Part shown: one piece after another, positions 1 to 12,089 of the stretch | Position numbering within the stretch: position 1 is the stretch's first letter | How the letters are laid out: each line of letters begins with the position of its first letter | Assembly: GCA_020344015.1 (NCBI GenBank) | Contig: CP070812.1 | Coordinates: 4,676,978-4,740,977, forward strand | From: Gemmatimonadota bacterium | Lineage (GTDB): Bacteria; Gemmatimonadota; Gemmatimonadetes; Palauibacterales; KS3-K002 | DNA: 64,000 nt | Direction: 5' to 3' | The notes under the pieces: generated by a model | What the model saw: only the letters and a program-made list of their open reading frames with translations | What the model was told of the DNA's origin: nothing | Database searches by the model: none | Position numbers and translations under genes: made by a program

Positions 1-753
1 CCGAGCGATCACGGGGCGCACGGCGCGCAGGGTCTGCTGCTGCTGCAAGATGACATCGGCTGGATACCTGGGGGGTTTGAAGGTCCGGAGCCGCCGGCGC
101 ACGGCAACATCGCGATCAACGAGGAGCTCTGCATCACCTGCCACGTGGTGCACTTCGAGGTTACCGATCCGGCGTCGGGCGACCACGTCTTCACGTCGGT
201 AGGTCACACGTTCGAGGCGATCCCGTGTCTGGATGCCGAGGGGATACCCGAGGCGCCGGGGACTGACTGTCTGCTGACCGAGCGTGATTTCCGCGCCTGC
301 GCAGGGTGCCACAATAGCGAGACCGCAGCACGCAATCTGTTCGTGGAGAACCGGGACTCGATCAACGTGCTATTGGATCTGCTGTGGGTCGACGATGATG
401 TCAACGGTACCATGGATGCGACGGACAGCGGCCTGCTGCCTCAGGTTCTGGCTCTTAGCCCAACGGACACCACGGAACTTGATCCGCGGGACCAGAAGGT
501 AACCGTTGCCGAGGGCGTCTTCTGGAACGCGCAGATCGCGCACACTTCGGAGCGCGAGTATTTCGCCGGCGCGCTATTCTATGTGGGACTGGCCGGTGAT
601 GACGAAGATGAGCCGCCGGACGGTATCCCGGACGGCATCGAGTGGGACACGCACGAAGCGAGCGGCGACGGTGTCCACAACCCGGACTTCTTGAAGCAGT
701 TGCTCGAGGCGTCGATCGAGGCATTGATCGACCACTATGGTTTGGGCTCGTAG
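1..753 (+). CDS. Multiheme c-type cytochrome, C-terminal part (5' end outside window)
   Basis: The reading frame is open from the first base, so the gene begins before the window. Two CxxCH heme c sites are visible, CITCH near codon 44 and CAGCH near codon 100, plus several free His residues that could be distal ligands. The C-terminal 100 residues carry no heme site and end with an HNPDF-type segment followed by a helix; such tails occur in OmcB/OmcE-like multiheme cytochromes. It is followed by a beta-barrel gene and a second multiheme cytochrome on the same strand, so it is probably the outer-surface or periplasmic partner of an electron conduit. Total heme number, signal sequence and cell location cannot be judged from this fragment. 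Confidence 0.8.
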   Translation, partial: PSDHGAHGAQGLLLLQDDIGWIPGGFEGPEPPAHGNIAINEELCITCHVVHFEVTDPASGDHVFTSVGHTFEAIPCLDAEGIPEAPGTDCLLTERDFRACAGCHNSETAARNLFVENRDSINVLLDLLWVDDDVNGTMDATDSGLLPQVLALSPTDTTELDPRDQKVTVAEGVFWNAQIAHTSEREYFAGALFYVGLAGDDEDEPPDGIPDGIEWDTHEASGDGVHNPDFLKQLLEASIEALIDHYGLGS

Positions 754-770
754 GCTGATAAACGATGGGA

Positions 771-801
771 CTCGGTTCGCGTGCCTACAGCGCGAACCGA
801 G
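771..801 (+). terminator. Perfect 11-bp hairpin after the cytochrome gene
   Basis: CTCGGTTCGCG (771-781) pairs with CGCGAACCGAG (791-801) around a 9-base loop, 18 bases after the stop codon. There is no immediate T-run (TTTT occurs about 25 bases later), so it may be a weak terminator, an mRNA-processing site or a stabilising 3' hairpin. Confidence 0.4.
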
Positions 802-902
802 CTCGCGGCCTGCCGGCTCTGCCGGTTTTGGTCAGACGCCGAATTGAACGGTCATGCCTTGGCGCCGAGGGGAAAGATTTGCAGCTCGCGTCACTGAGTC
901 AG

Positions 903-927
903 CGCAGGCGGGTGGCTCCCGCCTGCG
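903..927 (+). other. Perfect 10-bp hairpin in the leader of the barrel gene
   Basis: CGCAGGCGGG (903-912) pairs with CCCGCCTGCG (918-927) around a 5-base loop, about 60 bases before the GTG start of the barrel gene. No T-run follows. It could be a leader-RNA structure; I do not recognise a known riboswitch. Confidence 0.35.
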
Positions 928-988
928 TGGCGTCGGGCTCGCCATTCCTCGTGCCCACCAAAAAATACCGGGATTCGGGAGGAAAAAA

Positions 989-2539
989 GTGAGGCTTTCA
1001 GGCCTATCTCTGATGCGAGTCGGGGCCCGACTCCAGGTCTGGCGCATCGGGGTCGCATTCCTCGGTGTCGCGCTTGCCTGGAGTGGATGGGGCGCAACCG
1101 CGCTTCTCGCGCAGCAATGGCGAGCTCGGGTCTCCGGTCGGTTCCAGTTTATCGAGGCCCGGGCGCTCGTGCGCGACAGCGTTCTGGAGGCCCTTACGAC
1201 TGGCTCGGGCACTCAGCGGATGGTCGGCGACACAGCCGTTACCTGTACCACAGGCGCTGAGCACTGCTACTTCTACCGTGCTGGCGAGGTCGCGAACAGT
1301 TCTCCGGCGGTCGTTGACGTCGATTTGAGCGTTTTCGGCTTCGGGATCCAGGGGCTGAGGGCGTACGTAAGCACCCGCTTCAGGAACGACTTCTCCGACG
1401 GTACCTATGGGAACGATGAGTTTTGGCCCCGCGGCGACGAGCACTTCGATCTGCTAACGGGCTATGTGGAACTCAACAGGTCCTCGTTTCGAGTGCGCGC
1501 CGGCCGCGACTATCAGGCGAGCGGCCTCGGGTACTATGGTTACGATGGCGGTTCGTTCATCTACCGATTCGCCCCCTGGCGGATTGAGGTCGAGGCTTAC
1601 GGTGGTTGGGGCTTGGCCCGGGGGGTCCCCAGGTCGATTACGTCGGACGAGTTCGGCTCGTTGGGCGAATTCCAGCCGCCGGAGCGCGACTACCTGTTCG
1701 GTTTCCGCGGCTCGGCTCGCCCGACGTCGAACTCGGCGATCGCCGGGATCTACCAGCGGGAGATCCCGACGAACCGCGACGGGATAAGCAGCGAGCGCTT
1801 GGGCTTCGAAGCTTCGTGGTATCCGAAGCGCGAACTATCGCTGCAGGCGCACACCGACTTCGATCTGGCTACGGGCCTATGGGGCAAGGCCGGTCTCAAC
1901 GTCGGTTGGCAGGCCCACGAGAAGGTGTTCGTGCAGGGCAGGGTCTTCCGCTACCGGCCCGTATTCAGCCTGCAGACGATCTGGGTGGCGTTCAGCCCGG
2001 TGCCTTACACCGGCTGGAATCTGTCGCTGGGAGTGCAGCCGCGGTCCGACTTATCGGTGAGGCTCTGGGGTGAGCGACGCAGCTACGCCGACACGGAGGC
2101 GGAAGTCGGGTTCTTCGCCACTACCGATCGCGACTGGCGGGTGGGCGGCACAGTGGGGTGGCGACCGCAGGCGATGGGTGTGCCTTGGGATATCGACGCC
2201 GGCTACTGGCTCAATTGGGGTTTCGGTGCGGCGACCAGTTCGGGTGACGTGCGTGTCGGCCTGCGCCCACGTGACGAGTTGTCGGTGGGTGTCCGCTTCA
2301 CCGCCTTCCAGCAGCTCGATGAATTCCGAGTTGGTGAAGGGCGAGTCTGGGGACTCGGCGGAGATGCTCGCTGGCGGATCCCGGCCGGCACTGTCTGGCT
2401 TTCGGTGGACCGCTACGATCATAACCGACGCATCAACGCCGACATCTCGGAGGATCCGACCCAGCCCGACTGGAGCCAGTGGCGGGTGGCGCTCGGGTTG
2501 TCGTATTACTTGGGTTCGGAACCGGGGAGGTCACAGTGA
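989..2539 (+). CDS. Outer-membrane beta-barrel protein, candidate porin of a porin-cytochrome complex
   Basis: The 516-residue product has a hydrophobic signal-like N-terminus ending in an AQQ-type site, then alternating aromatic/polar beta strands rich in Tyr, Trp and Gly, typical of a large outer-membrane barrel; the last strand ends in LSYYLG. I chose GTG 989 because GGGAGG lies 6-7 bases upstream; the frame is open further upstream but that part does not look like a signal peptide. Its stop overlaps the GTG of the following nine-heme cytochrome, so the two are translationally coupled. Lying between two multiheme cytochromes, it fits the porin of an MtrB/OmbB-like trans-outer-membrane conduit. 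That role rests on context and general barrel character; I did not recognise a specific family motif. Confidence 0.7.
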   Translation: MRLSGLSLMRVGARLQVWRIGVAFLGVALAWSGWGATALLAQQWRARVSGRFQFIEARALVRDSVLEALTTGSGTQRMVGDTAVTCTTGAEHCYFYRAGEVANSSPAVVDVDLSVFGFGIQGLRAYVSTRFRNDFSDGTYGNDEFWPRGDEHFDLLTGYVELNRSSFRVRAGRDYQASGLGYYGYDGGSFIYRFAPWRIEVEAYGGWGLARGVPRSITSDEFGSLGEFQPPERDYLFGFRGSARPTSNSAIAGIYQREIPTNRDGISSERLGFEASWYPKRELSLQAHTDFDLATGLWGKAGLNVGWQAHEKVFVQGRVFRYRPVFSLQTIWVAFSPVPYTGWNLSLGVQPRSDLSVRLWGERRSYADTEAEVGFFATTDRDWRVGGTVGWRPQAMGVPWDIDAGYWLNWGFGAATSSGDVRVGLRPRDELSVGVRFTAFQQLDEFRVGEGRVWGLGGDARWRIPAGTVWLSVDRYDHNRRINADISEDPTQPDWSQWRVALGLSYYLGSEPGRSQ

Positions 2540-3372
2540 GCTTCTATCGTTCAATCATAAGCGCGCTGCTTGTCATCGCTCTATTTGTGGTCGATGCCCA
2601 ATACGGCATCGCGCAGACGGGGCAGATGTCCATGCCGGACAATCATGAGATCGCTGATTTCTGGCTGACCCACGGAAAGTCCGCAAAACAGGACATTACG
2701 TTCTGCGCGGCGTGCCATGCCCGAGAGTACTGCAGCGGCTGCCATGTCAATGCGTCTGCGATTTCCGAGATCCAGGCGCTGCCTTCGAACCCGGATGTGG
2801 CCGACTACGTGGCGAGCCGGGAATGGCCGGCGCCGCCGACCCACACGCCCTTCTTCGTCGAGGATCACCGGGCGGTTGCGGCGAGCATGGCGCAGACTTG
2901 CGCGACCTGCCACGTGGTGGAGCAACAGTGCAACTCGTGCCACATCGGCTCGGAAACGCTGGAGCGGCAGGGCGGCGTCACCGATGTAGACAACTATCAC
3001 CCCCTCAACTTCGTCCAGCGGCACTCGGCGTCGGCCTGGAACCAGGAGAACGAGTGTGCCAGCTGCCACAATCCGGAGACGTTCTGCCGGAGTTGCCACA
3101 CGACCCTGGGGTTCGCCAGTCGCGACGGTAGAACCAATACGGGATTCCACAACGAGAGTTCGAGCTTCGCGTTCGGGCACGGGCAGGCCGCGCGGCAGGG
3201 GCTAGAGCTTTGCGCTTCGTGCCATGCCCAGCAGGACTGCCTGCAGTGCCACTCGGCAAGGGCTGGCCGCAGGGTCAACCCGCATGGCCCGGGCTTCGAC
3301 GCGGAGAAGCTGCGGTCGAAAAACCAAGGGCTGTGCCTGTTCTGTCACTTCTCGGTCCCTGGTGGGCCGTGA
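2536..3372 (+). CDS. Nine-heme c-type cytochrome, periplasmic
   Basis: The 278-residue product begins with a short signal peptide ending in IAQ, then contains nine CxxCH sites: CAACH, CSGCH, CATCH, CNSCH, CASCH, CRSCH, CASCH, CLQCH and CLFCH. They occur as close pairs about 6-10 residues apart, giving a regular heme wire. Size and heme count are near those of MtrA/DmsE (ten hemes, about 330 residues) and OmaB-type periplasmic cytochromes. GTG 2536 has GGGGAGG 5 bases upstream and overlaps the stop of the barrel gene, so the two proteins are probably made in step. Likely job: carry electrons from the periplasm into the barrel. It could instead serve a reductase; no partner enzyme is next to it. 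Confidence 0.8.
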   Translation: MSFYRSIISALLVIALFVVDAQYGIAQTGQMSMPDNHEIADFWLTHGKSAKQDITFCAACHAREYCSGCHVNASAISEIQALPSNPDVADYVASREWPAPPTHTPFFVEDHRAVAASMAQTCATCHVVEQQCNSCHIGSETLERQGGVTDVDNYHPLNFVQRHSASAWNQENECASCHNPETFCRSCHTTLGFASRDGRTNTGFHNESSSFAFGHGQAARQGLELCASCHAQQDCLQCHSARAGRRVNPHGPGFDAEKLRSKNQGLCLFCHFSVPGGP

Positions 3373-3443: not shown

Positions 3444-3480
3444 CAGGCTACCCTGCTCTCTCTCGGTCGCGCCCCGGCCG

Positions 3481-4045
3481 GTGGAGGGACGCGTTTACGT
3501 AACACCGGGGCGAGCTGAGGCTGGACGTACCGTCTTCTTGGAGAACCGCTTCAACCAATGCCATAGCGTGCAGGGGGTCGGTGGCCGGTTGGCACCGGAC
3601 CTCGCAGGGCGGAAACGGCAGTGGGGACTGACCGACTTCGCCGCCGCCATGTGGAATAAGGCGCCGGCGATGGTCGAGGCGATGGACGAACTCGCTATGT
3701 CTGCCGCAAAGCTCGGCGGCGGTGAAATGGCTGATCTCGTCGCCTACCTCTACTACGTAGAGTTACTTCGCCGAGCCGGGTGACAGCGAACTGGGCGAGC
3801 AGGTCCTGCATCGCAAAGGGTGCTTGAGTTGTCACGCTCTGCGCGGCAGCGGCGGAACGGAAGCTTCCGATCTCGCCTGGATCAGAGGCATCGGCTCTCC
3901 CGCCGCACTAGCCGCTTCGTTGTGGAACCACTCGGTGAGAATCGCGACCATGCCTCAGGCCTGGCAGGAGGAGTGGCCGAGCTTCGAGGCCGCTGAGATA
4001 GCCGACCTGACGGCGTTTCTGGAGGAGCTGGAGAAGAGCCGCTAA
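3481..4045 (+). pseudogene. Decayed diheme cytochrome c (frameshift, first heme cysteine lost)
   Basis: Two cytochrome c domains are readable but not as one protein. The first (from 3481) has FNQCHSVQG where a CxxCHSVQG heme site is expected; TTC replaces a Cys codon (TGC/TGT) by one base. It ends at a TGA at 3781 just after a VAYLYYVE segment. Removing one T near 3763-3765 restores a frame that reads YFAEPGDSELGEQ and continues into the second domain with a normal CLSCH site and a stop at 4045. No signal peptide can be found upstream, where the previous operon's terminator lies. Three independent defects favour a genuine pseudogene, although the frameshift alone could be a sequencing error. 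Confidence 0.7.
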
Positions 4046-4249: not shown

Positions 4250-4648
4250 ATGAACCATCGACGTACCATCGCAGCGTCAGCCTTCCTAATCGTTGCGCTG
4301 GCGGCATTCGCCTGGCAGCAGGCAGGTTGGACGACCCCGCCGGCGATGACCCACGACGCCGCTGGTCGTGATAACTGCATGATGTGCCATAAGGCGGGGG
4401 CGATGGAGCCGGTGCCCGACGCGCCGGCGGACCATGAAGGGCGCCCGAATGAGATCTGCCTGATGTGTCACGCGCCGGACGCTGCGGTGCAGACGACGGC
4501 ACCACCTGCAACGCCGCACCCGCTGGAGGGTCGCGATAACTGCATGATGTGCCACACTGCCGGCGCGATGGAGCCGGTCCCGGACGCGCCTGCCGACCAC
4601 GAGGGTAGAGACAACCAGTACTGTACGCTCTGCCACAAGCCGGCTTAG
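4250..4648 (+). CDS. Small tetraheme c-type cytochrome with internal duplication
   Basis: The 132-residue exported protein has an N-terminal hydrophobic signal and four CxxCH sites (CMMCH, CLMCH, CMMCH, CTLCH). The sequence is a tandem duplication: each half reads GRDNCMMCH, then AGAMEPVPDAPADHEGR, then a second heme site 24 residues later, separated by a Thr/Pro-rich linker. ATG 4250 follows AAAGGGAG at good distance. It is probably a soluble or anchored periplasmic electron shuttle serving the larger cytochromes nearby. I do not recognise a named family. Confidence 0.75.
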   Translation: MNHRRTIAASAFLIVALAAFAWQQAGWTTPPAMTHDAAGRDNCMMCHKAGAMEPVPDAPADHEGRPNEICLMCHAPDAAVQTTAPPATPHPLEGRDNCMMCHTAGAMEPVPDAPADHEGRDNQYCTLCHKPA

Positions 4649-5733: not shown

Positions 5734-6072
5734 ATGCACGAGATGTCGCTCGCGTTGGAGATCCTGTCGATTTGCGAGCGTGAGTTGGGCGGGCTGCCGG
5801 AGACCCAGGTCACGGCGGTTGGTGTGGAGGTGGGCGCATTTTCGGGGGTCGACGCCGACAGCCTCCAGTTCTGTCTCGAGGCCGTGATGTCCGGCCAGTT
5901 CGATGGGGTTCGCTGCGAGGTGGTGCGCCAACCGGGCGAGGCTGCCTGCCCGAGGTGCGACAGGGCGTTCAAGGTGATGCGGGCGCCGTTCGAGTGCCCG
6001 GAGTGTGGTAGCCTGGCGCGTGGCTTCTCGGGTGGGCAGGGCCTTCAGCTCTGCTATCTCGAGGTGGAGTGA
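5734..6072 (+). CDS. hypA: HypA nickel metallochaperone
   Basis: The 112-residue protein starts with MHEMS, whose N-terminal Met and His2 form the nickel site in HypA, and has the two CxxC pairs (CPRC and CPEC) of its structural zinc site. HypA delivers nickel to the large subunit of NiFe-hydrogenase with HypB. The length is typical. AGGGGAG precedes the ATG, and the stop overlaps the GTG of hypB, so hypA-hypB-hypF form one operon. No hydrogenase structural genes are in the window. Confidence 0.92.
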   Translation: MHEMSLALEILSICERELGGLPETQVTAVGVEVGAFSGVDADSLQFCLEAVMSGQFDGVRCEVVRQPGEAACPRCDRAFKVMRAPFECPECGSLARGFSGGQGLQLCYLEVE

Positions 6073-6749
6073 GAGCGGTGAGCGCCGAGCGGGTGGACGT
6101 AGAACAGAAGGTCCTGAGCGCCAACGACCAGATAGCGTCGGAGGTCCGTGGGCGTCTCGCGGGCCATGGGGTCTTCTCGGTCAACATCCTCTCATCGCCA
6201 GGGTCGGGCAAGACGACGCTACTCGAGCGGACCGTAGATCTGTTGAAGCCATCGTTGCGCCTCGCCGTGGTGGCCGGCGATGTCCAAACGCGGAACGATG
6301 CGGAGCGGCTGGAGCGACACGGGATACCGGTGCAGGCGATCGAGACGGGCGGTGGCTGTCATCTGAACGCGCGTCAGGTCTCGGAGAGCCTCGAGTCGCT
6401 CGACCTCGGCGAAATGGACCTGTTGTTCATCGAGAACGTCGGCAACCTGGTCTGCCCGTCGTCGTTTGATCTCGGCGAGTCGCGAAAGGTTGTGCTGTTG
6501 AGCGTGACGGAAGGCGAAGACAAGCCGCTCAAGTACCCGGCGGCGTTCAGGCGTGCGGGCGTTCTGGTGGTTACCAAGGTCGACCTCGTGCCGCACGTCG
6601 AGTTCTCGACCCAGACTGCAATCGAAAATGCGCTGTCGATCAACCCGGATCTCGTCGTCTTATCGACTTCGTCGTATACCGGAGAGGGACTGGACTCGTG
6701 GGCGGAATGGCTCACAGGACAGGTAACGGAGTGTAAGCAAGGCTCATAA
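6069..6749 (+). CDS. hypB: HypB hydrogenase nickel-incorporation GTPase
   Basis: The 226-residue SIMIBI-class GTPase has a P-loop SSPGSGKTT, a GGGCHLNA segment containing the conserved Cys-His metal site of the G domain, an ENVGN switch and a TKVDL guanine-specificity motif. It hydrolyses GTP to drive nickel transfer to hydrogenase with HypA. The His-rich N-terminal nickel-storage region of some HypB proteins is absent. The GTG start overlaps the hypA stop; a second GTG at 6078 is possible. hypF begins one base after its stop. Confidence 0.93.
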   Translation: MRAVSAERVDVEQKVLSANDQIASEVRGRLAGHGVFSVNILSSPGSGKTTLLERTVDLLKPSLRLAVVAGDVQTRNDAERLERHGIPVQAIETGGGCHLNARQVSESLESLDLGEMDLLFIENVGNLVCPSSFDLGESRKVVLLSVTEGEDKPLKYPAAFRRAGVLVVTKVDLVPHVEFSTQTAIENALSINPDLVVLSTSSYTGEGLDSWAEWLTGQVTECKQGS

Positions 6750-6750
6750 T

Positions 6751-9024
6751 GTGCAGGGGCTAAGCCTCAGAGTACGCGGCATCGTTCAGGGTGTCGGCTT
6801 TCGCCCGTTCGTTTTCCAGCTAGCCGAGCGCCACGGCCTCGCCGGCTGGGTACGTAGCACGAGCAGCCAGGTCGAGATCGAGGTCGAAGGAAGCGGGGAA
6901 GCGCTGGCCGGATTCCTCCGTGACCTGCGCGAGTGTGCGCCGCCTCCGACGCGGATAGACGAGATCGAATCGGAGGATCGCCCGGCCTCGGGCTACGGCT
7001 CGTTCGAGATCGTCGAGGGCCACTTCGACCCGGGCTGGCAGTCGATCCCACCCGACACGGCCACCTGCGATGCCTGCCTGGAGGAGACCCTAGATCCTAG
7101 CGATCGGCGTCACCGGTACCCCTTCACCACCTGCGCGCACTGCGGACCGCGCTTCACGATCGTCCAGGAACTGCCGTGCGATCGCAGCCGCACGACGATG
7201 GCCTGCTTCGAGATGTGCGAAGATTGTCGCTCGGAGTACGAGGACCCGCGCGGCCGTCGCTTCCACGCGCAAGCCATAGCCTGCCCCGCCTGCGGGCCGC
7301 GGGTCTGGTTGCAGTGGCCCAACGGTGAGCCCGTGGAGGGCGATCCCATCGATGCGTGTGCTGCGCTGCTCGCTGGCGGGCGCATCGCCGCCTTGAAAGG
7401 GCTAGGTGGCTTCCAGCTCGCCTGCGACGCCACGGACGCCGAGGCCGTCGAGCGACTGCGCACGGGCAAGCAAGTCTACGGGGAGCCGTTTGCCGTGATG
7501 GTGCCGGATCTGGATTGGGCGCGGCGCTTATGCGAGGTCACGCCGGCCGAGATCGAGGCGCTGAAGAGCCACGAGCGGCCGATTGTCTTGTTGCGGCGCC
7601 GGCCCGGCGGCGGGGTTGCCGAGCAGGTGGCGCCCGGCTCGAACACCTTGGGCCTGATGCTTCCTCAGACGCCGCTCGACCATCTCCTGCTGCGTGGGTT
7701 CGACGGTCCTCTTGTGATGACCGGCGGCAACTTGGGCGAAGCGCCGATCGCGGACGGCAACCGGGAGGCGTCGGAAAGACTGAGCGCGACCGCCGACGTG
7801 TTCCTCTTCCACAATCGCGACATCTACGCGCGCTACGGCGCCTCGGTCGTCCGGGTAATGGGAGATACGGCCGTGCCGATCCGCAAGGCCCGCGGCTGCG
7901 CGCCGACTCCGCTGCAGTTACCGCTCTCTGCTGCGCAGGACATACTCGCCGTCGGCGGCCGGAAGAAGAGCACATTCTGCATGGTGAAGGGATCCCAGGC
8001 TGTTGTAGGCCCGCACATCGGGAACCTGGAGAACCTCGAGACCCTTGAGCAATACGAAGCATCGCTCAAGCTGTTCGCGCGGCTGCTCGAGCTGGAGCCG
8101 GGTATCATCGCCCACGACATGCACCCGGACTACCCGTCCACGCATCTGGCACACGAATACCCGGCGCCGTCGGCGTTGCGGGTGGTCGTACAGCACCATC
8201 ATGCGCACGTGGTGAGCGCGATGGCCGAGCATGGCGTCCGCGACCCCGTCATCGGCGTGGCCTACGACGGCACCGGCTATGGTACCGATGGTGCAATCTG
8301 GGGCGGCGAGATTCTGGTCGCCGACTGGAAGTCGTTCCAGCGCGCGGCCCACCTGCGCTACGCGCCGCTGCTCGGTGGTGAGGCGGCGATCCAGAAGCCC
8401 TACCGGATGGCGACAGGATACATCTGGTCGCTCTGCGCGGCTTGCGAAGTCGATTTCGAGGAGTACCTGGGGAGAATACCGATCGGCGAGCGCATTCTGC
8501 TGCGCCGGCAGTTCGAAACGGAGGTGAATACTCCTCCCACGTCGTCGTGCGGGCGTCTGTTCGACGCCGCAGCCGCACTGCTGGGACTGAGCACGGAGGC
8601 GCTGTACGAGGGTCAGCCGGCTGTGGAGCTCGAGGCCGCGGCCGACCCGGCGGTCGACGTCGTCTATCCTTACGACATACTGCGTGACGGTGAAGGCTGG
8701 ATCATCGATCCCGCGGCGACGCTGCGAGCGCTGTGGTGCGAACTGCGCGCCGGCCGCCCGATTCCCACGATCGCTGCCGCCTTCCACAATACGGTGGCCG
8801 ATTTCACCCGCAACGTCTGTGTGGCGGTCCGCGAGAAGTATGGGCTAAAGAAGGTCGTCCTGAGCGGCGGATGCTTCCAGAACGCTCTGCTTACCCGGCG
8901 AATCCTCGACGGCCTCAGCGATGACGGTTTCGAGGTTCTCACCCACCGCGTGGTGCCGCCCAACGATGGCGGGATCTCGCTGGGGCAGGCAGTAGTGGCC
9001 TATGCCCTGACCGAGGGCATTTGA
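6751..9024 (+). CDS. hypF: HypF carbamoyltransferase
   Basis: The 757-residue protein has the full HypF layout: an N-terminal acylphosphatase domain (GIVQGVGFRPFVF), four Cys pairs forming two zinc fingers (CDAC, CAHC, CEDC, CPAC), a YrdC-like nucleotide domain and a Kae1-like C-terminal domain with HHHAHV. HypF uses carbamoyl phosphate and ATP to carbamoylate the C-terminal Cys of HypE, the first step in making the CN ligands of the NiFe site. HypE, HypC and HypD are not in this window, so the rest of the pathway must lie elsewhere. GTG 6751 is placed directly after the hypB stop. Confidence 0.94.
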   Translation: MQGLSLRVRGIVQGVGFRPFVFQLAERHGLAGWVRSTSSQVEIEVEGSGEALAGFLRDLRECAPPPTRIDEIESEDRPASGYGSFEIVEGHFDPGWQSIPPDTATCDACLEETLDPSDRRHRYPFTTCAHCGPRFTIVQELPCDRSRTTMACFEMCEDCRSEYEDPRGRRFHAQAIACPACGPRVWLQWPNGEPVEGDPIDACAALLAGGRIAALKGLGGFQLACDATDAEAVERLRTGKQVYGEPFAVMVPDLDWARRLCEVTPAEIEALKSHERPIVLLRRRPGGGVAEQVAPGSNTLGLMLPQTPLDHLLLRGFDGPLVMTGGNLGEAPIADGNREASERLSATADVFLFHNRDIYARYGASVVRVMGDTAVPIRKARGCAPTPLQLPLSAAQDILAVGGRKKSTFCMVKGSQAVVGPHIGNLENLETLEQYEASLKLFARLLELEPGIIAHDMHPDYPSTHLAHEYPAPSALRVVVQHHHAHVVSAMAEHGVRDPVIGVAYDGTGYGTDGAIWGGEILVADWKSFQRAAHLRYAPLLGGEAAIQKPYRMATGYIWSLCAACEVDFEEYLGRIPIGERILLRRQFETEVNTPPTSSCGRLFDAAAALLGLSTEALYEGQPAVELEAAADPAVDVVYPYDILRDGEGWIIDPAATLRALWCELRAGRPIPTIAAAFHNTVADFTRNVCVAVREKYGLKKVVLSGGCFQNALLTRRILDGLSDDGFEVLTHRVVPPNDGGISLGQAVVAYALTEGI

Positions 9025-9027
9025 TTA

Positions 9028-9069
9028 TCGATGCTCACTGCATGACTACAAATAGGCAGTGAGCATCGA
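9028..9069. terminator. 14-bp convergent hairpin between hypF and the 19-heme cytochrome
   Basis: TCGATGCTCACTGC (9028-9041) is repeated inverted at 9056-9069 around a 14-base loop. The right arm lies inside the last codons of the converging cytochrome gene, so the other arm duplicates coding sequence. No T-run follows on either side. Its core resembles the hairpin at 15485-15522. Confidence 0.5.
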
Positions 9070-11925
9070 ATAGAGTATCAGGAAGATCAACGCGAGTCCC
9101 ACCGCCAAGGCACTAAACCCAAAAACCTTGAAAACTCGCTGGAGCTTCGCCGGGTACTGGTGAGTCATATACTCCTCGAGTCTGCCCGCCCGCACGAGCT
9201 GCTCGTACTCCCGTGGCTTGTCGTGCTTGAGCTCCTCTACAGTAATGCGGCCGGTGAAGATGACCGGATCGATGGGAAACTTGTCCGGCCGGAAGTGGGT
9301 GTTGAAGAAGTGGACAGTGAAGATGAAGGCGACGGCCAGCAAAGCCTCATCGCTGTGCAGGATGGTCGCCACGTTCACCGTCCAGCCCGGCAGCAGCAGG
9401 GTGAAGAACTCGGGGAACCAGAGCAGTAGTCCGGTCGAGCCGATGATGAACATCCCCCAGAAGACTGCGAAGTAGTCGAATTTCTCCCAGTAGGTGTAGC
9501 GTCCGTAGTAGGGACGCGGCCCCGTGCCCAAGAACCACTTGGCCGACGCGATGAATTCCTTGAGATCCGTTTTGTTGAAGATCAAGGAGCTGTCCGAGAA
9601 GATGAACTCCTTCCAGTTCTTACCCGAGGCCTGCTTACGGCGGTAGACGTCGCCCAAGTGGATCAAGAAGACCGTGATCAGCGCGATCGCCGCCAGCCGG
9701 TGCAACACACCTGTCGTGGCGAAGCCGCCGACGGCGCCGGCCAGGACCTGCGCCCAGACCATGTAAGAGAACTTCAGAGTCATGCCGGTGATTGCCAGGA
9801 CGAAAAAGCTGAGCAGCATCACCAGGTGCAACGAGCGCTCGAATGTGGTGAACCTCCGGTAGAGCCGCTCACCGGGTGCCGGCTCGCGGTGTTTCCTCGC
9901 GAATACCCACTCCTCGGGCGAGCGCCAGAGACGCCAGAGCCAGGCGAGCGTGTGGAACGTCGCGAGAGTCAGCGTCCCGACCAGCAGCGCGGTCATCCCC
10001 CAGAACGTCCAGAACAGGTATGGGTACCTCTCCGGGTCGTGGTGCGTGGCGTGGGTCAGGTAGCCGGTGAAGCGGCGGTTGGCCCCGGGGTGGCAGTCGG
10101 CGCAGGTCTCGACGATGTTGCGGCGACTAAGCGTAGACAGGGCGTCGGTGGTCGGGCGGATGTTGTGGGTGCCGTGGCAGTCGTAGCACTTGGCGGCGGC
10201 GGCATCACCCAGCCTGGAGACCTTGCCGTGGAAAGTGTCGAAGAACGTCTCCGACTCCTCTTCGTGGCAGCGGCCGCATTGGTCCATCATCGTCAGCCGG
10301 AAATCGCCCTGGCCGGTTCGGCTGATGGTGTGCGAGGTATGGCAGTCCTCGCAGTTTGGCAGCTCGCGATCCTCGGGCGCGTCCTCTCGGCCTATCCAGT
10401 GGATGCTGCCGCTGTATTCCTCCTCTATGCCGTGATGGCACGTGCCACAGGTCTCCGAGATGTTGTCGCGATGGACCGAGGACTCCGGGTCCTTAGGCGG
10501 GAGTTCCTTGTGCGCCGTGTGACAGCTCGGGCAAGTGGCTGTCACGACGAGGCCGCTCTCCAAGAGCCCTTTGCCGTGGATGCTCATCACGTAGCTGTTG
10601 ACGATGTCCGGGCCGACATAGCCGGCCTCCTCGATGCGGCGGGCTGCAGGCTCACCCTCGCGGTGGCAGCGTGCGCAGAGCTCCGGGACGTTGCTGGCGA
10701 AGGTCGGTGAGGTCGGCCAGATGTTGTCCTGCGTCGCGTGGTGGTCGTGACAATCGAGACAGGTCGGTGCCTCGGGCACTCCTTCCGCAGCCATAAAGCC
10801 GTGCATGCCCGAGGTGTAGTCGTCCACCGGACCTGCATGACAGATGGCGCAGTCGACATTGGCCGCCACCGATGTGGTGCAGGCGCGGACAATCAGCGAC
10901 GGCGTGACGTCAGCATGGCACTGAGCGCATCCCGTTCCGCCGTGTTTGGAAGCGTTGTAGGCGAGCTCATCGACGTAGAGTGAGACCGTCTCACCGTCCC
11001 GCTCCATCGTCAGCTGCGGATCGGAGTGGCAACGCATGCAGTCTGCGTTGGCCGCGCCCGCGTCGTAGAAGACCCTGCGCACTTTGTGCGGCTCGTGGCA
11101 GTCGACGCAGACGGGGATCACGTGCGGCTCCTCTTCCCACAGCCTTCCCTCGATCACCTGCTGGTGCACTTCCTCGATCAGCGCGTGGCACTGCGTGCAG
11201 GTGCCCGACACGTTCGATTCGTGGATGGTCGAGCGAACGTCGGTGTGCGGCAGGATGAAATGTGAGGTGTGGCAAGACGTGCAGACCGCGGTCACGGCCA
11301 GACCCTGTCGAAACAGACCCGCCCCGTGAATCGACATCGAGTAGTTCTGAAGAATCTGGTCCTGCGGTATGTCTCGCGTTCTCGATACCTCCGTACCCTC
11401 CTGATGGCAGCGCCCGCACAGCTGCGGGATGCGGAACACGTAGGTCATCGCCCTGGGGTCGCTGTTCGCCCGGATGTCGTGGGTGCCGTGACAATCCGAG
11501 CAGCTCGGAGCCAGAGGGTCGCCGCGCGCTGCCGCCTGTCCGTGCAGCGAAATGGCGTGTCGAGTGGCCTGATCGTTGTGACAGACGGAGCAATCCGCCG
11601 GCTGTGGCGTCTCCGGATGCGGGAAGGCCAAGCCGCGGTGGCAGTCGGTGCAGAGCACTCCTCGGGCTCCATGCAGCGAGCCCTCGTGGGCCTCCCGTGT
11701 GACTACATAGCGGGACGGGTCCTCCTTGCCGGCAAAGAAGGCCTCGTTCTCATGGCACATCAGGCACACGTCATTGTCCTGCCCTGCGGCCGAGCCGGCC
11801 GTGGCCAGGATCAACGCCGCCAGCGCGGCTGTCGTCTGCGGCCAGCAGCACCAACTCAGCGCCTTCCCTGCCAGGCTCAGGTTCCGTGTCCCTGTTCGCC
11901 GAATGTCGAGGTTTTGCCGCCCCAA
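9046..11925 (-). CDS. Giant cytochrome: 19 heme c sites fused to a membrane cytochrome b domain
   Basis: The protein has a signal segment ending in SAAGQ, then 19 CxxCH sites across roughly 590 residues, then about 300 residues of membrane helices. The membrane part has His pairs (HRLAAIALITVFLIH; HSDEALL with later His) and a cytosolic loop resembling the cytochrome b subunit of formate dehydrogenases and hydrogenases. The heme part is modular: a unit with S-x-HG, CxDCHxxH and CxRCH recurs, and a unit around SIHGKGL occurs twice. It probably moves electrons between the quinone pool and periplasmic or outer-membrane acceptors. I chose TTG 11925 because GAGGA lies 7 bases upstream and it leaves a normal signal peptide; the frame runs on to a GTG at 12069 without a good ribosome site. 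Confidence 0.85.
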   Translation of the reverse strand: MGRQNLDIRRTGTRNLSLAGKALSWCCWPQTTAALAALILATAGSAAGQDNDVCLMCHENEAFFAGKEDPSRYVVTREAHEGSLHGARGVLCTDCHRGLAFPHPETPQPADCSVCHNDQATRHAISLHGQAAARGDPLAPSCSDCHGTHDIRANSDPRAMTYVFRIPQLCGRCHQEGTEVSRTRDIPQDQILQNYSMSIHGAGLFRQGLAVTAVCTSCHTSHFILPHTDVRSTIHESNVSGTCTQCHALIEEVHQQVIEGRLWEEEPHVIPVCVDCHEPHKVRRVFYDAGAANADCMRCHSDPQLTMERDGETVSLYVDELAYNASKHGGTGCAQCHADVTPSLIVRACTTSVAANVDCAICHAGPVDDYTSGMHGFMAAEGVPEAPTCLDCHDHHATQDNIWPTSPTFASNVPELCARCHREGEPAARRIEEAGYVGPDIVNSYVMSIHGKGLLESGLVVTATCPSCHTAHKELPPKDPESSVHRDNISETCGTCHHGIEEEYSGSIHWIGREDAPEDRELPNCEDCHTSHTISRTGQGDFRLTMMDQCGRCHEEESETFFDTFHGKVSRLGDAAAAKCYDCHGTHNIRPTTDALSTLSRRNIVETCADCHPGANRRFTGYLTHATHHDPERYPYLFWTFWGMTALLVGTLTLATFHTLAWLWRLWRSPEEWVFARKHREPAPGERLYRRFTTFERSLHLVMLLSFFVLAITGMTLKFSYMVWAQVLAGAVGGFATTGVLHRLAAIALITVFLIHLGDVYRRKQASGKNWKEFIFSDSSLIFNKTDLKEFIASAKWFLGTGPRPYYGRYTYWEKFDYFAVFWGMFIIGSTGLLLWFPEFFTLLLPGWTVNVATILHSDEALLAVAFIFTVHFFNTHFRPDKFPIDPVIFTGRITVEELKHDKPREYEQLVRAGRLEEYMTHQYPAKLQRVFKVFGFSALAVGLALIFLILYSMLTAYL

Positions 11926-12089
11926 GCCAGTATCCTCACAGTCGTTACGCGCTCCGTTGTAATCCTCAGGGAGCAAATCGTGTGCCCTCAGCGGGGGCCC
12001 CAGACCCCGCTTGAGCTGGCTGGGTACGGCGTGTTGGGCCAGGGGCCGTGGGACATATTGTCCCCACACCGTTCGACGGCCGGCCTCGC

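Follow-up and report, generated by a model that had tools for sequence, protein, structure and literature searches.

A candidate porin-cytochrome electron conduit outside the MtrB and MtrA sequence families in Gemmatimonadota

Which kind of system is encoded by the three genes at the left end of a 64,000-nucleotide stretch of Gemmatimonadota DNA (contig CP070812.1, positions 4,676,978 to 4,740,977, assembly GCA_020344015.1; the whole stretch is called the window below)? An earlier note, written from the letters alone, had seen a multiheme cytochrome, an exported beta-barrel and a nine-heme exported cytochrome in a row, the last two overlapping by their GTG and TGA, and had proposed a conduit for electrons across the outer membrane of a probable Gemmatimonadota species. 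This arrangement was confirmed by the reading frames and by its recurrence across the phylum, and the note was right about the origin and the nine hemes. It is likely that the locus encodes a porin-cytochrome conduit for electrons across the outer membrane, and that this conduit belongs to a sequence family lacking from the model libraries searched. The conduit-type gene set is familiar in its logic and new in sequence, distribution and wire architecture.

The source organism belongs to Gemmatimonadota, family Palauibacteraceae. Its closest named relative is Candidatus Kutchimonas denitrificans (locus L058, barrel 78% identical), which is grouped under Candidatus Palauibacteraceae, the same family as the window genome, and is given as a member of Palauibacterales in PMC10469786. 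Locus L055, from a Gemmatimonadota bin, is closer, with 88% identity of the barrel.

Gene order and conservation of the block

The first gene (1-753, + strand) is open at the left edge of the window, where only its 3' part is found, i.e. the last 250 codons with 2 of about 9 CXXCH motifs. A gap of 100 N ends 1 base before window base 1 in the window genome, a single scaffold of 4.8 Mb; the edge is an assembly gap, in which the 5' part was lost, and not a biological gene end. The barrel gene follows at 989-2539 (+, 516 codons). Its frame is open from ATG 854 to 2539, with GTG 989 behind GGGAGG as the likelier start. The nine-heme cytochrome is encoded at 2536-3372 (+) in a frame open at 2479-3372, for which GTG 2536 behind GGGGAGG is the likelier start; both ribosome-binding sites were read by eye. 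The GTG (2536-2538) of the nine-heme gene and the TGA (2537-2539) of the barrel gene share the letters GTGA.

Relatives of the barrel were found in 84 of 298 Gemmatimonadota genomes, the window genome included (~28%). A scan of 84,980 species with one peptide pattern, by which more distant relatives could be missed, yielded 68 loci, all placed in Gemmatimonadota: 65 bear Gemmatimonadota or Gemmatimonad- names, one is Kutchimonas, one Longimicrobiales, and one (L056) coincides by contig number and end position with G300 of the window family. The apparent confinement of the barrel to this phylum is thereby only partly tested. Directly 3' of the barrel, a multiheme gene is present in all 61 loci in which a complete barrel gene is followed by 900 bases or more; directly 5', as scored by script, one is present in 48 of 53 loci with at least 1.5 kb before the barrel. 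Among the five upstream misses, the barrel frame of L060 had been over-extended past a 17-heme gene and a cytochrome-b-like frame intervenes in L095 (the same locus as L050); L064, L090 and L106 remain misses. The start of the downstream partner overlaps the barrel stop in 51 of 55 scored loci, by exactly four bases, as in the window, in 42. Because of the number of genomes with the barrel and the downstream multiheme gene in every locus with room for it, the gene set is confirmed, from sequence, as real and conserved beyond chance. The block, for which the earlier note had proposed a check of synteny in related genomes, recurs in L058 and in the same-genus locus L135 as well.

Predicted surface lipoprotein, barrel and heme wire

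For the first gene, another gap edge of the same assembly is informative. At this edge lies the 5' portion of a gene of the same type (L004:7934-9109), with the lipobox LGLALGAC and 9 CXXCH, and this copy is 90% identical to the window over 379 bases, of which the first 71 are identical (genome match 1484728-1485106). A diguanylate-cyclase (GGDEF) gene lies upstream of it, and the same is found in L135, a gap-free locus of genome G299 from the same genus, which reads GGDEF, nine-heme lipoprotein, barrel and ten-heme cytochrome. Because of the shared sequence and this common neighbour, window 1-753 and the L004 piece very probably belong to one locus; the 10% mismatch suggests mixed strains or alleles. 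The pieces adjoin 100-N joins at L004:9110-9209 and L003:9879-9978 and, being parts of probably one locus, lie ~3.2 Mb apart, which makes the scaffold order doubtful. Kutchimonas (L058) also has a nine-heme lipoprotein immediately 5' of the barrel. A lipobox and 9 CXXCH, as befits a redox lipoprotein, are present in the first genes of L004, L058 and L135, whereas the window holds the 3' part only. Given these three counterparts, the whole first gene in all likelihood encodes a nine-heme lipoprotein, and the export signal that the earlier note wanted to see upstream of base 1 exists in the L004 piece, in Kutchimonas and in the same-genus genome. Among 33 lipoprotein homologues with at least 7 hemes, 25 have 8, six have 9 and two have 7. 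The lipobox was recognized by script in 28 of the 33; by eye, two more are canonical and three near-canonical. The lipoprotein is weakly similar to the cytochrome c554 and DmsE families, with scores far under the NCBIfam cut-offs, and its C-terminal part is heme-free.

The second gene encodes, according to a confident model, a large outer-membrane beta-barrel. Its signal peptide extends to about residue 41 (by eye). An AlphaFold2 model from 61 sequences reached a predicted local distance difference test (pLDDT) of 88.6 and a predicted template modelling score (pTM) of 0.81, and has 25 strand elements, 23 of them with at least 10 residues, two short helices only and no extra plug domain. Thus, the small closed pore that would have spoken against the earlier proposal is not what was modelled. 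Almost all of the structures listed as matches are outer-membrane barrels, as expected of an integral barrel. Foldseek matched porins (MOMP, BpsOmp38, Occ) and usher pores, with MtrB at rank 25; VIA-align placed a siderophore receptor first (Z 18.6, root-mean-square deviation 4.3, 361 residues), closely followed by usher pores and Occ porins. These matches are almost tied, so they would indicate the fold class of the barrel only. Two cysteines, C86 and C93 (precursor numbering, six residues apart), are invariant in all 61 aligned barrels and also in an 18-row alignment. In the model they are located close to where the second long strand begins, and they possibly form a disulfide.

By sequence, the barrel stands apart from MtrB. 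Neither PF11854 (MtrB_PioB) nor TIGR03509 was among the matches of the 61 barrels at E 0.01, and the profile of the barrel family matched no PDB sequence at E 10. As a positive control, profiles were built from four real MtrB proteins and their decaheme partners from other Gemmatimonadota genomes; these matched 6R2Q as they should (MtrB to chain B, 3.7e-57; MtrA to chain A, 1.1e-83). Aligned with hhalign, the barrel family and real MtrB gave a probability of 38% over 181 columns. PF11854 is over its cut-off in 25 of the 298 genomes of the phylum; a separate MtrB elsewhere in the window genome was considered and rejected, as PF11854 has no match there.

The third gene product has a signal peptide, read by eye, and would be exported. 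Aligned to the C-terminal part of longer homologues, it shows four repeats, each with a pair of histidines ahead of two closely spaced CXXCH, and then one histidine and one CXXCH. It contains 18 histidines, 9 in CXXCH and 9 elsewhere, and this count fits what full bis-histidine ligation would need. The nine histidines outside the motifs are kept in 53, 57, 59, 59, 60, 60, 59, 60 and 60 of 60 rows, and the nine CXXCH in 57 to 60 of 60. The protein has 28 residues per heme when mature and 31 as precursor; He et al. cite ~33, for MtrA homologues, as the smallest ratio (PMC5566968).

The hemes of the 60 complete downstream partners number 16 in 51 cases, 9 in two, 12 in two, and 10, 11, 13, 14 and 18 in one each. 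The nine- rather than ten-heme periplasmic part of the earlier note is correct as a count of CXXCH, and is one state of a mostly 16-heme family. The extra hemes of the longer homologues sit N-terminal to the nine shared positions. Palauibacteraceae with 9 or 10 hemes group together in a tree of the barrels, as a single clade beside the 16-heme relative L037, and three changes between short (9-12 hemes) and long partners are needed; L060, L064, L065 and L073, whose partners are incomplete, were set to 16-heme by default. In one relative (genome G158), a further nine-heme frame (L036:9681-11165) is oriented divergently from the conduit; its possible lipobox is followed by a collagen-like GPEGPEG stretch.

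Nor does the cytochrome fall into the MtrA family. TIGR03508 (MtrA/DmsE) matched 2 of 60 members at E 0.01 (best 4.1e-5), and the window protein not even at E 1. The ten hemes that characterize the MtrA/DmsE family are replaced by 9 CXXCH in the window and by 9 to 18 in the 60 complete relatives. The profile of the nine-heme family did not match chain A of 6R2Q at E 10, its best PDB match being 2e84 (E 0.0024), and hhalign against real MtrA gave a probability of 96%, but over 48 columns around CXXCH motifs only. A similarity to DsrJ (18 of 60 members at E 0.01, best 9.4e-6; window protein 19.9 bits against a cut-off of 100) was rejected as common CXXCH spacing. Judged by these profiles, barrel and cytochrome are outside the MtrB and MtrA sequence families. 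The likeness to MtrCAB and Omb-Oma-Omc claimed in the earlier note accordingly stands for the presence of the three conduit elements and falls for membership in the MtrB or MtrA family.

Several points weigh against a conduit. The fold matches of the barrel are generic, include ordinary porins and do not pick out MtrB, and its strand count is uncertain. Conservation of the lumen-facing residues does not significantly exceed that of the lipid-facing ones (p = 0.34, with faces assigned by hydrophobicity, which is partly circular), and lumen conservation was rejected as a sign of a bound wire. The structure model of the nine-heme protein is poor (pLDDT 68.3, pTM 0.39); a structure search with it gave no VIA match and one chance match at E 9.4, and the model was discarded as a basis for judging pore fit. 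The window genome is a gapped assembly that divides the first gene. With the decay of a fourth cluster gene, part of the locus may have eroded in this genome: the remnant at 3463-4045 (+) misses its 5' half, has a broken frame and has lost one CXXCH, while relatives have an intact gene for ~410 residues, with four tandem monoheme cytochrome c domains, 3' of the nine-heme gene. Expression or physiology data for the conduit were not found in the open-access literature searched.

Some of these observations would suit an ordinary uptake porin co-transcribed by chance with soluble periplasmic cytochromes. Diffusion and Occ/OprD porins are among the best fold matches, the lumen adds no support for a bound partner, and weak matches to Porin_4 (Pfam) occur in 4 of 61 barrels, as do OMP_b-brl matches in 4 of 61. 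Such a coincidence is very improbable in view of the multiheme gene 3' of the barrel wherever there is room, the frequent four-base overlap, and the retention of barrel, cytochrome and putative surface lipoprotein together over a deep tree.

Electron source, direction and the hydrogenase link

The sequence itself shows the order of the genes, the overlapping start, the signals for export, the numbers of hemes and histidines and their conservation, and the barrel fold is predicted. In the conduit reconstructed from these, the barrel would sheathe the nine-heme cytochrome, whose bis-histidine hemes would serve as a wire through the outer membrane. At the outer surface, the multiheme lipoprotein would hand electrons to, or take them from, an extracellular substrate. 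We infer that the flow is outward and that mineral, humic matter or another cell accepts the electrons.

The most likely electron source on the periplasmic side would be quinol, oxidised by the product of a gene further downstream on the opposite strand (9046-12069, -). This protein has 1007 residues and 19 CXXCH fused to a membrane b-type cytochrome (b561/FdnI-like), and is a candidate quinol dehydrogenase of the CbcL/MtoC/MtrH kind. Its C-terminal part matches formate-DH-gamma (2.7e-11, residues 738-960, below the cut-off) and Ni_hydr_CYTB (1.8e-8, residues 739-917, over the cut-off). CbcL, MtoC and MtrH are described as having 3-23 N-terminal CXXCH, a C-terminal HydC/FdnI-like b-type cytochrome and a length of 416-1034 amino acids (PMC6295460); with its heme count and b-type part the protein falls within this definition, near the upper end of the size range. 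Its gene is syntenic in the same genus (L135). Of 39 loci whose DNA upstream of the barrel spans at least 4.5 kb, 25 have an additional 17-19-heme gene there, and none was found there in the three Palauibacteraceae loci with ungapped upstream DNA (L057, L058, L135). In L102 and L114 this upstream gene is itself a cytochrome-b fusion directly adjoining the conduit, which supports a quinone-linked chain. From the quinol dehydrogenase, electrons would cross the periplasm perhaps via a small exported tetraheme cytochrome (4250-4648, +; frame open from GTG 4205), a candidate periplasmic carrier, then enter the nine-heme wire and leave by the lipoprotein. Between these genes lie the hydrogenase maturation genes hypA (5734-6072), hypB (6069-6749) and hypF (6751-9024), all on the + strand (5734-9024). 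In G299, locus L135 continues likewise with a four-heme protein of 411 residues, a tetraheme cytochrome, hypB- and hypF-like frames (by eye) and the convergent 19-heme/cytochrome b gene.

A link to hydrogenases appears at the level of the phylum. A [NiFe] large-subunit match was called strong at a best E < 1e-90, a cut chosen after viewing the list, and two of the 50 genomes so selected have gene fragments (G125, G041). The barrel is present in 43 of these 50 genomes and in 41 of the remaining 248 (odds ratio 31, p = 3e-21 in Fisher's test; n = 298), and in six of the seven strong-[NiFe] genomes without it MtrB is over the cut-off. Weak hydrogenase matches (33 genomes), which serve as an internal control, show no association (barrel in 9 of 33, p = 1). 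Any hydrogenase match occurs in 52 of 84 barrel genomes and in 31 of 214 others. The tests take genomes as independent; counting by genus (hydrogenase in 33 of 56 barrel genera vs 2 of the 63 without it, p ~4e-12; the barrel occurs in 33 of the 35 genera with hydrogenase) softens the effect of shared ancestry and does not remove it. In L038 (G269), hydrogenase small- and large-subunit genes lie 3' of the conduit on the same strand. A [NiFe] large subunit was found within the flanks (up to 6 kb) in only 4 of 68 loci, many of which are cut short by contig ends.

Against the hydrogen link stand three genomes: the window genome (G000, about 92% complete) and G183 have no large-subunit match (PF00374), the genus sister G299 has weak ones only, and the small-subunit domain (PF14720) is absent from all three. 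A hydrogenase was therefore rejected as the partner in the window genome, though hypA, hypB and hypF are present; these genes near the conduit are the only hydrogenase trace found there. For the phylum, the co-occurrence suggests hydrogen-fed extracellular respiration. It is quite possible, and offered tentatively, that hydrogen-fed extracellular respiration is the main job in the phylum of a conduit family in which the barrel and the C-terminal nine heme positions are constant and the diheme-repeat wire is longer or shorter, from 9 to 18 hemes, at the N-terminal end that would face the periplasm.

The same co-occurrence bears on the direction of flow. Like MtoAB or PioAB, the conduit could run inward and pass electrons from an outside donor such as Fe(II) to an oxidase or the quinone pool. 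The CbcL/MtoC/MtrH family is thought to work in both directions and has homologues in reducers and oxidisers (PMC6295460), and relatives within the order are considered facultatively aerobic and, for the most part, able to respire nitrogen oxides (PMC10469786), both of which would agree with inward flow. We nevertheless consider it unlikely: hydrogenases in the phylum, albeit not in the window genome, point to an electron sink and not a source, and a putative surface lipoprotein cytochrome is present, while MtoAB and PioAB are described without one (PMC5566968).

A further possibility, rather more doubtful, is that the electrons go to one specific extracellular reductase, or to a reaction that the lipoprotein itself carries out at the surface, as in DmsEFAB for dimethyl sulfoxide. 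The weak likeness of the lipoprotein to cytochrome c554 and DmsE and its heme-free C-terminal part would allow this, and in one of 20 loci listed gene by gene a frame beside the block (L050:2823-4835) resembles, by eye, a molybdopterin oxidoreductase. However, no such enzyme recurs in the gene lists of these 20 loci (the non-cytochrome neighbours of the 68 loci were not systematically annotated), and the lipoprotein scores far under the NCBIfam cut-offs. Outward flow through a general conduit remains the preferred reading.

Extracellular electron transfer in Gemmatimonadota has so far been hinted at piecemeal. Surveys report one MtrCAB member (PMC8805035) and 1 CbcL-type and 2 ImcH homologues (PMC6295460) in the phylum, and metagenome studies report Cyc2, multiheme or iron genes (PMC9769843, PMC8478452). 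Metal respiration has been proposed for the window's own order, in a paper whose available passages do not mention multiheme conduits (PMC10469786). A description of the conduit was not found in the open-access literature searched; it may have been sighted earlier without a name in the family list of PMC11475568, where MHCscan gives 42 new accessory families, or in the figure of PMC13264449, in which clusters are shown by phylum. A dedicated conduit in ~28% of the sampled genomes would change the present view. It would also give a search profile for a pathway missed by the Pfam and NCBIfam models used and a natural set of wires that differ in length on the same barrel, and the hydrogenase link makes a specific physiology testable.

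Comparison with known conduits

Geobacter workers called outer-membrane conduits on a periplasmic multiheme cytochrome, an integral beta-barrel and an outer-membrane redox lipoprotein (PMC6148476). The window locus shares this three-part logic with OmbB-OmaB-OmcB and with ExtABCD and ExtEFG. The Ext clusters are reported to have barrels of 18 to 21 strands, with 12 hemes in the periplasmic as well as the lipoprotein cytochromes, and extEFG to be part of a transcription unit of the hydrogenase family (PMC6148476). The Geobacter conduits, compared by description, have another gene order and other heme numbers than the window locus.

With MtrCAB, MtoAB and PioAB (PDB 6R2Q) the locus has in common a barrel and an exported multiheme wire in which each heme takes up few residues; a lipoprotein cytochrome at the surface is likewise part of MtrCAB, and CbcL-like inner-membrane partners (MtrH, MtoC) are described beside some mtr and mto clusters. 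The candidate quinol dehydrogenase resembles CbcL, MtoC and MtrH in its multiheme c-type N-terminal and FdnI/b561-like C-terminal parts. Geobacter CbcL has 9 hemes instead of 19 (PMC6295460), and the likeness rests on domain architecture. The window barrel, with 475 mature residues and about 23 long strands, differs from MtrB, for which 26 strands are given, and the tight diheme repeats of the window family differ from the widely spaced single motifs in the real MtrA of the phylum.

PCC3 and PCC4 are likewise porin clusters described as not homologous to the two established types, and PCC3 also combines extracellular and periplasmic multiheme proteins (PMC5566968). PCC3 is unlike the window family in its median of 34 and 21 hemes, its up to 42 strands and its 5-helix inner-membrane protein, whereas PCC4 is reported without an extracellular cytochrome (PMC5566968). 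With 7-9 hemes outside, 9-18 inside and about 23 strands, the window family is set apart from both, as far as their descriptions go.

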